From Actinomycetota bacterium (GTDB lineage: Bacteria > Actinomycetota > Thermoleophilia > BMS3ABIN01), in contig JAMCPM010000011.1 in the NCBI GenBank assembly GCA_023382335.1, forward strand, positions 253,229 through 317,228: a stretch of DNA of 64,000 nucleotides, read 5' to 3'. Position numbers and translations under genes: made by a program. The notes under the pieces are model-generated. The model was not told the origin of the DNA and ran no database searches. It saw only the letters and a list, made by a program, of their open reading frames with translations. The number at the start of each line of letters is the position of its first letter. Within the stretch, counting starts at the first letter, position 1. Shown here in pieces: positions 17,212-59,935 of this stretch.

Positions 17212-19023
17212 ATGTCCATAAAAAGTTTTCTCATCGGCCAGCCGCTCGAGAGTGTCAGGGAAAAACACGAGCGGCTTACAAAAACGACCGGCCTGGCAAT
17301 ATTCTCCTCGGATGCACTGTCCTCGGTCGCATATGCTACCGAGGAAATCCTGCTGGCGCTGGTCGTCGCCGGCACCGCCCTGATCAATTACTCCATGGCG
17401 ATCGCGGTCGCTATCGCAGCGCTGATATCGATTGTCACCACTTCCTATTTTCAGACCGTCCACGCCTATCCCTCGGGGGGCGGCGCCTATATCGTCGCCA
17501 AGGATAACCTGGGTGAAAATGCCGGGCTCGTGGCCGGGGCCTCGCTGCTGATCGATTACGTGCTGACTGTCGCCGTGAGTATCACCGCCGGAGTCGCCGC
17601 CATCACCTCCGCTGTGCCATCGCTGGGCGAACACAAAGTCCTGATCTGCCTTGTCGCCATCGGCCTGCTGATGCTTGCGAATCTTCGAGGAGTGCGCGAA
17701 GCCGGGAACTTCTTTGCCATACCGACGTATACGTTTGTTTTCAGCATACTGGCCCTGATCGGCTTTGGCCTGTTCAAATACCTCACCGGTTCCGAACCGC
17801 CGCCGGCCGAACCCGTCGAAGCCGCGACCAGTTACATCGCCATCTTCGTCGTCCTTCGGGCGTTCGCCGCCGGATGCACTGCAATGACCGGAATCGAGGC
17901 GGTATCGAATGGAGTCCAGGCCTTTAAGCCGCCGGAGCCCCGCAACGCCAGCATCGTCCTCATCTGGATGGCCGCCATTCTGGGCACCATGTTCATAGGT
18001 ATCTCCTTCCTGGCGGATCATTACAACATCGTACCGGTGGAAAACGAGACGGTCCTCTCACAACTGGCGGTGGCTATCTTCTCGAAGGGCCCGATCTATT
18101 ACCTTATCCAGACAGCGACCGCGCTCATCCTCATCCTGGCGGCAAACACGTCCTTCCAGGGATTTCCGCGCCTCTCCTCGGTCATGGCCGCGGACGGTTT
18201 CATGCCCCGTCAGTTCGGCAGCCGCGGTGACCGTCTGGTGTTTTCCAACGGGATCCTGATCCTGGGGCTTGTGGCGGCAGGCCTGGTAGTCGTCTTCAAG
18301 GGGCAGACGCACGCGCTGATCCCCCTTTACGCCGTCGGCGTCTTTCTGTCCTTCACGCTGTCTCAGTCCGGCATGATCAGGCACTGGCTGAGGTTGCGTG
18401 GCAAGCGATGGAAGCGCAACATGCTCATCAACGGCCTGGGCGCGGTCACCACCTTCATAGTGCTTATCGTGATAGCATCGGCCAAGTTCTTAAGCGGTGC
18501 CTGGATCGTGGTCATCGCCATTCCAATCATTGTTTATGCAACCAGGAAGGTTAAAACCCACTACGATTCCGTCGCCCGGCAGCTCAGCCTCGAAGGCGCG
18601 CCGCGCACAGTCGAATACACGCATCACTCCGTGGTCGTTCCCGTCTCCGGCGCGCACCAGGCGGTCATCAACGCTATCCGCTACGCCAAGGCGCTCTCCA
18701 GGGACGTGGTCGCGGTTTACGTCTGCTTCGATCCCATGGAGACGACCAGGCTCAAACAGAAGTGGGCCCGCTATGGCATGGATGTGCCGCTGATCGTGCT
18801 GGAATCGGAATATCGTTCAGTGATCGAACCGCTGATGGAATATATCGATGGCGTTCGCGAGACTCACAGGGGTGGCGTCATCACCGTGGTCTTGCCCGAG
18901 TTCGTGCCGCAAAAATGGTGGCACCACCTGCTGCATAACCAGACCGCGTGGCTGATAAAAGGCCTGTTGCTTTTCAAGCGGGGGGTCGTCTCCACCAGCG
19001 TGCCCCTGCACCTGGAGTCATAA
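17212..19023 (+). CDS. kimA: KimA-type potassium uptake permease (APC superfamily)
   Basis: High-affinity potassium/proton symporter family (formerly YdaO). The 603 residues match KimA over the full length: IKSFLIGQPLES, FSSDALSSVAYATEEI, YPSGGGAYIVAKDNLGE, LLIDYVLTVAVSITAG, GCTAMTGIEAVSNGV, and the shared C-terminus (WHHLLHNQTAW). About 12 membrane helices are followed by a cytoplasmic domain (about 450-600). In Bacillus subtilis this family is controlled by c-di-AMP at RNA and protein level; the candidate riboswitch leader here fits that. AAAGGA precedes the ATG. Probably transcribed separately from hypE. Confidence 0.85.
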   Translation: MSIKSFLIGQPLESVREKHERLTKTTGLAIFSSDALSSVAYATEEILLALVVAGTALINYSMAIAVAIAALISIVTTSYFQTVHAYPSGGGAYIVAKDNLGENAGLVAGASLLIDYVLTVAVSITAGVAAITSAVPSLGEHKVLICLVAIGLLMLANLRGVREAGNFFAIPTYTFVFSILALIGFGLFKYLTGSEPPPAEPVEAATSYIAIFVVLRAFAAGCTAMTGIEAVSNGVQAFKPPEPRNASIVLIWMAAILGTMFIGISFLADHYNIVPVENETVLSQLAVAIFSKGPIYYLIQTATALILILAANTSFQGFPRLSSVMAADGFMPRQFGSRGDRLVFSNGILILGLVAAGLVVVFKGQTHALIPLYAVGVFLSFTLSQSGMIRHWLRLRGKRWKRNMLINGLGAVTTFIVLIVIASAKFLSGAWIVVIAIPIIVYATRKVKTHYDSVARQLSLEGAPRTVEYTHHSVVVPVSGAHQAVINAIRYAKALSRDVVAVYVCFDPMETTRLKQKWARYGMDVPLIVLESEYRSVIEPLMEYIDGVRETHRGGVITVVLPEFVPQKWWHHLLHNQTAWLIKGLLLFKRGVVSTSVPLHLES

Positions 19024-59266: not shown

Positions 59267-59575
59267 GCGGCCCGCAACATGCCATCCGTGAATGCTTCTT
59301 CCGATTTCGCGATATCAAATTTTTTCATTTCAGGAATGCTTCGCTCACTCGCGCAACCTTATCCTCATCGTCTGCGAAGAGATTCCCCAGTAATAGTCTG
59401 TTTCCTGCTGCGAATCGCGGTGGACCATGAAAATTATGGACACGTTGATATCCGCAAAGGACGCTTGTCCTTTTTTCCTGCACCGGGCGATCTGTCTCAA
59501 TATTCTCTGGATACGAAAAGAACAAATCTGGGAATATGCACAGAGTAAGCTACAACGACTCGAGGAGTGATCGAC
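59267..59575. other. Gap between the ABC ATPase and DsrE genes
   Basis: About 309 bp, divergent promoters expected. No convincing gene, hairpin terminator or repeat seen. Confidence 0.5.
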
Positions 59576-59935
59576 ATGGCAAAGATTCTGGCGGTAGCCA
59601 CCCACGGAACTGACGATCCTACCAGGAGTTCCCTGGCATTCATCGTCGCGGCTGGGGCTTTAGAGGCAGGCAAGGAGGCCGCTATTGCCCTTGTCGGAGA
59701 GGGAGTCTATCTGGCCAAGAAGGAGATAGCACAAAGCATTCAGGGCGTGGCTGCTCCACCGCTATCTGACGTGATCGCAAAGATTGTCGAGGGCAAGGTC
59801 CCGGTCTATTTATGAGGGCCCTGCTCCGTCGCCCGTGGGGTAACAGAAGAAGACGTCAAATCATTGAATGGCACCTTCATGGACCCGGCCAAGTTCGCGG
59901 AGCTTATATCCGAATCTAGTGTCGTGAGCTTCTGA
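59576..59935 (+). CDS. DsrE-family protein with in-frame TGA, probable selenoprotein
   Basis: ATG 59576 has GAGGAG 8 bases upstream. The first 79 residues (AKILAVATHGTDDPTRSSL...VEGKVPVYL) are a DsrE-family sulfur-relay fold. A TGA at 59813-59815 follows, then the same frame continues GPCSVARGVTEEDVKSLN...PAKFAELISE to a TGA stop at 59933. Family members read VPVYxCGxCxxARG here, so the TGA replaces the first Cys of a CGxC pair and the product would carry UGPC (Sec80, Cys83). Total 119 residues, full length. A hairpin with an apical loop starting GU begins within 6 nt of the TGA. The alternative is a Cys-to-stop nonsense mutation. Function unknown; redox or sulfur handling is likely. Confidence 0.6.
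59821..59846 (+). promoter_or_regulatory. Possible bacterial SECIS hairpin
   Basis: CTG-CTCC pairs with GGGG-CAG (bulge TAA on the 3' side), leaving a 9-nt apical loop GTCGCCCGT. The G and U at the loop start fit the bacterial SECIS requirement. The loop begins about 12 nt after the TGA, closer than the usual 16 nt or more, so support is moderate. Confidence 0.35.

Follow-up and report, generated by a model that had tools for sequence, protein, structure and literature searches.

A DsrE-family gene with a probable selenocysteine codon in a Thermoleophilia genome and its relatives across phyla

Introduction

Proteins of the DsrE-like family with selenocysteine (Sec) in a UxxC motif have been described several times in bacterial sequence data. 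The Sargasso Sea survey of 2005 listed two such sequences (PMC1088965), the GOS survey of 2008 recorded the groups 'DsrE 1' and 'DsrE 2' with 19 and 2 members, respectively (PMC2398784), one DsrE-like selenoprotein is given for Desulfovibrio vulgaris (PMC1794560), and further listings are found in PMC9312934 and PMC13188914. Among the reviews that reach to 2026 (PMC9312934, PMC13188914), the latest, in its passages on such proteins, calls their functions largely uncharacterised.

Here we analyse a 64,000-nucleotide stretch of an Actinomycetota genome of the class Thermoleophilia (the window), in which a preliminary description had pointed to a probable Sec-containing DsrE-family gene. Its statement that proteins of this kind feature in selenoproteome surveys is borne out by three of the above sources (PMC1088965, PMC2398784, PMC1794560). 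The gene resembles the published family in belonging to PF02635, in placing Sec first in U-x-x-C and in having a predicted bacterial SECIS element right after the UGA; by Pfam family and motif, it joins the established DsrE-like UxxC selenoproteins. The published lists hold few members, whereas the clade described here spans Actinomycetota, Chloroflexota, Rokuibacteriota, Myxococcota, Acidobacteriota and Poribacteria.

Results

A DsrE-family reading frame interrupted by one TGA

The gene occupies positions 59576-59935 of the forward strand, with an ATG at 59576 and a terminal TGA at 59933-59935, and its predicted product has 119 residues with Sec at position 80. A ribosome-binding sequence, GAGGAG, is read at 59562-59567, 8 nt ahead of the ATG, and AGGAG-type sites comparable to it precede many relatives. 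The frame translates as MAKILAVATHGTDDPTR...VPVYL-U-GPCSVARGVTEEDVKSLNGTFMDPAKFAELISESSVVSF, where codon 80 is a TGA (59813-59815) that forms the first position of UGPC; the final stop is also a TGA. The column of codon 80 is TGA in all close relatives, and the partner residue of the U-x-x-C motif, Cys83 (59822-59824), is conserved in all 51 aligned sequences. A standard ORF call ends at 59815 and yields a product of 79 residues from the ATG or 82 from a GTG start. The full length, the strong ribosome site and the 79-residue truncation put forward in the preliminary description all agree with these positions. Because about 75 frames of similar size in the window are open across a TGA, the case for selenocysteine must rest on conservation, and what raises this locus above such chance frames is that all close relatives conserve both the TGA and the second half.

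The read-through product matches the Pfam DsrE family (PF02635) with 54.6 bits over residues 3-118, well clear of the gathering cut-off of 22.7, versus 28.0 bits for the truncated product, and the C-terminal half is family-like, as had been proposed. Profile comparison aligns Sec80 with the first Cys of CKTC in E. coli YchN, and a Cys of 3mc3 also falls opposite it; a search of PDB sequences with the single protein returned no match, and matches were found with the profile. The first Cys of CGIC in a DsrE paralogue of the same genome occupies the Sec80 position as well, as does the first Cys of CSAC in three further homologues (L049-L051). The in-frame TGA therefore aligns with a functional Cys of homologues, and in YchN and the CGIC paralogue alike this is the leading Cys of the CxxC pair, for which the preliminary description had given CGxC.

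The TGA in relatives from several phyla

In about 50 relatives from six named phyla the TGA is kept at this site and the second half is intact. The closest comparison comes from a Thermoleophilia MAG of the same genus (G008), which keeps the TGA and whose downstream protein is 82% identical and ends at the same residue; its gene is split over two contigs that meet just past the TGA with a 6-base overlap. G008 is the only one of six other genomes of the genus to have the gene, and no close copy was found in the remaining genus and family genomes examined, although selA is present in all of them.

Among 396 Actinomycetota genomes, the best 20 matches each contain exactly one TGA, at the codon-80 column, and the lower-scoring Cys forms read CSAC. 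The twenty-first match (L042, genome G193, 1495-1857) is a full-length gene in which SGGS replaces UxxC, both redox residues being lost and the rest conserved. The named GTDB genomes gave relatives in Candidatus Aquicultor, Rubrobacteraceae, Acidimicrobiaceae, Chloroflexota, Rokuibacteriota, Myxococcota, Acidobacteriota and Poribacteria, and all 28 with a readable site, from six phyla, have TGA there. One pattern used in the GTDB scan required a Cys codon at the site, which gave close Cys forms a chance to surface; the closest relatives in the Actinomycetota and GTDB genomes yielded no version with Cys. The best 12 matches in 400 Chloroflexota genomes all contain a TGA, its position having been read in ten; for the phylum of genome G416 the search covered only seven genomes. 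No relatives were found on the viral contigs searched.

Two of the recovered loci are unusual in other respects. A Chloroflexota DsrE match (G530:C74:21671-22030) has two in-frame TGA codons and possibly two Sec residues, and in G038 two gene copies lie about 2 kb apart (C117:16004-16201 and 18272-18595), the match to one copy being confined to its second half.

On a tree of 48 proteins, whose deep forks are weak, the Sec label needs two changes, and it may have had a single origin.

A conserved hairpin follows the TGA

A SECIS-like hairpin of 17 nt, GUCGCCC-GUG-GGGUAAC, lies at 59828-59844 on the forward strand, marked by covariation, synonymous constraint and fold. It starts 12 nt after the TGA, and its GUG loop lies 19 nt after the TGA, a spacing shared by every aligned relative. 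The preliminary description was thus right about a hairpin with a GU-containing loop, and its remark that the hairpin sits closer than usual does not hold for this family.

The family consensus is GUCGCCC-GUG-GGGUGAC. Codons +5 to +9 past the TGA are 86% identical in same-residue comparisons, versus 44% upstream; Ala at codon +6 is GCC in 50 of 51 sequences (43% elsewhere in the same genes), and GGG accounts for 46 of the 48 Gly codons at +8, against 23% of those at other positions in these genes. In a covariation test of 51 sequences, 94% of cells are paired, and four pairs and 14 cells have changed on both sides. None of 500 shuffles reaches the observed pairing, number of both-side-changed pairs or covariation score, in statistics that ignore the relatedness of the sequences, and slid controls fall far lower; a first test confined to 23 Actinomycetota was not significant (score 28/500). 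Compensatory exchange between G-C and A-U is seen at columns 18 and 30 in L073, L074, L076, L089, L096, L097 and L040, and in L078 two synonymous changes produce a U-A pair at columns 21 and 27. A search of Rfam around the gene, with E values up to 5, gave chance matches only. Because of the synonymous conservation and the covariation, the reading of this hairpin as the SECIS element of the family is supported; across the family, a putative SECIS with a small G-containing loop follows the TGA.

The window's copy is weaker. An A replaces G at column 30, creating a C.A mismatch and leaving four contiguous stable pairs, and the predicted fold energy is -4.0 kcal/mol versus -9.7 for the consensus; when more of the stretch is folded, its stability does not exceed that of shuffled sequences. 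Codon +9 is GTA in the window and in none of the 50 other sequences. Insertion of Sec from the mismatched hairpin could be less efficient, and this hairpin is the weakest point for the selenocysteine reading of this particular gene. The mismatch, the unique codon and the patchy presence of the gene in the genus would all fit a family that contains Sec but whose SECIS is decaying in this genome, leaving the 79-residue form as the main product. We consider that unlikely, given that this copy retains its loop, the GCCC/GGGU inner part of the stem and a complete second half, and that dN is low after the TGA.

Selection on the two halves of the gene

Between the window gene and that of G008, dN is 0.164 and dS 0.97 before the TGA, and dN is 0.083 and dS 0.73 after it. 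Other pairs give the same picture, with the exception of L026/L035; in L035 (G265) the TGA is present and the frame changes from about 1782 (about codon +15), either by assembly error or in a decaying copy. Both these rates and the alignments indicate that the coding sequence after the TGA is conserved and that the second half is, by this measure, under purifying selection.

These results bear on whether a chance Cys-to-stop change has simply truncated an ordinary DsrE gene. A single TGA parting the two halves, the absence of the gene from most genomes of the genus and the weakened hairpin of the window copy are what such a pseudogene might look like, but one would hardly expect its TGA to recur in some 50 relatives from different phyla, with an intact second half under purifying selection and codons past the TGA that are nearly frozen at synonymous sites. 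At the level of the family the pseudogene reading is already refuted by the conserved TGA and second half, and for the window gene we regard it as very improbable. The preliminary description had named unrelated stops and decay of the C-terminal half in close relatives as the outcome that would count against a selenoprotein; the comparison gave the same TGA and a conserved second half instead.

Selenocysteine machinery in the genome

The source genome (2.45 Mb, 99% complete) contains selA (490 bits), with selB directly after it on contig C16 and a tRNA-Sec with anticodon UCA 0.9 kb after selB. It also contains selD (380 bits), on the minus strand of L022 (G000:C14:28000-32500) at about 1558-2490, with a single in-frame TGA at HGAG-U-ACKI, a site where SelD proteins normally have Cys or Sec. 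All four genes (selA, selB, selC and selD) whose presence had been proposed as a check are thus in the genome. The selD gene is itself a selenoprotein gene and is probably cut short in annotation too.

Among the named relatives, selA was found in 24 of 27 genomes. Presence of selA was rejected as a means of telling Sec from Cys genomes; it is common in non-Sec genomes too, so it supports feasibility only. One genome given as 98% complete, G086 (L046), has the TGA-containing gene, and selA was not found in it.

Reassignment of TGA (a Trp or Gly code) or read-through by near-cognate suppression would account for a continuing frame in a family that needs its second half, but is scarcely credible in a genome with a full Sec system and a TGA in selD, in which this gene's own stop is TGA, none of the six other DsrE-family genes contains an internal TGA or other stop, and the TGA falls at a Cys position followed by a covarying hairpin.

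Predicted structure, neighbourhood and role

The AlphaFold2 model has a DsrE fold (pLDDT 94) with Sec80 located where strand 77-80 ends, immediately ahead of helix 81-86. The top Foldseek matches all belong to DsrE/YchN/TusBCD: 2hy5, the archaeal DsrE/F-like protein 3mc3, YchN (1jx7) and TusBCD. YchN and 3mc3 share the fold and length of the window protein and place a Cys at the Sec80 position, and differ in having that Cys instead of Sec and in being only about 16-21% identical to it. DsrEFH and TusBCD (2hy5, 2d1p) have the same fold, and in DsrE and TusD a conserved Cys is used for persulfide transfer. The window gene, unlike these, is solitary: it is flanked by a cyclopropane fatty-acid synthase gene and, on the opposite strand, by an ABC-2 transporter set, distant relatives share no neighbour of it, and no adjacent DsrF/H or TusB/C partner was found in the window or in the named relatives. 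An operon link was rejected, as the genes found up to 4 kb away in the named relatives form clusters only through close kinship or common protein folds. Elsewhere in the genome (L084 130-1854, G000:C15), a DsrE/DsrF-like pair, one member with CGIC, adjoins a GcvH/lipoate-binding-like protein, an arrangement that recalls gene sets for sulfur oxidation that include lipoate-binding proteins.

We infer the chemistry and the partners of the product from its family. Most likely it serves as a soluble relay for persulfides or thiols, in which Sec80 is the nucleophile and Cys83 its partner.

Discussion

The comparative evidence strongly supports decoding of the UGA as Sec, and window positions 59576-59935 very probably represent a selenoprotein gene in which UGA codon 80 is read as selenocysteine within the UGPC motif of a DsrE/YchN-fold protein. 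In the proposed mechanism, SelB with Sec-tRNA(Sec) would read codon 80, directed by the short hairpin that begins inside the coding sequence 12 nt past the UGA, and the second TGA (codon 120), beyond the reach of the hairpin, would terminate translation. Sec80 would replace the conserved active-site Cys and pair with Cys83. The product would then act as a thiol/persulfide redox relay handling sulfane sulfur or selenium, with Sec80 attacking and Cys83 resolving via a selenenylsulfide.

A Sec-fixed DsrE subfamily that spans several phyla was not found reported in the parts of the selenoprotein literature that deal with DsrE-like proteins. Set against the published sequences as those sources describe them, our results suggest a clade that is wider and more uniformly selenium-dependent than the published lists. 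As every close member has Sec and no close Cys form was found, the relatives may constitute a DsrE subfamily, in at least six phyla, for which Sec is effectively obligatory, in which the coding sequence past the UGA is locked to the near-invariant SECIS GCCCGUGGGG and which has spread by horizontal transfer, a proposal that we rate at about even chances. If it is true, there is mutual constraint between the SECIS and the protein motif VARGVTE.

Standard annotation trims these genes to about 79-82 residues and so loses the active-site pair, and misannotation of a conserved selenoprotein is therefore likely in many environmental Actinomycetota and Chloroflexota. The near-invariant 17-nt hairpin would be a compact natural SECIS in which several compensatory changes are synonymous, and it could serve to probe what the SelB of these phyla recognises. 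The Sec-only pattern suggests a chemistry in which Cys falls short.
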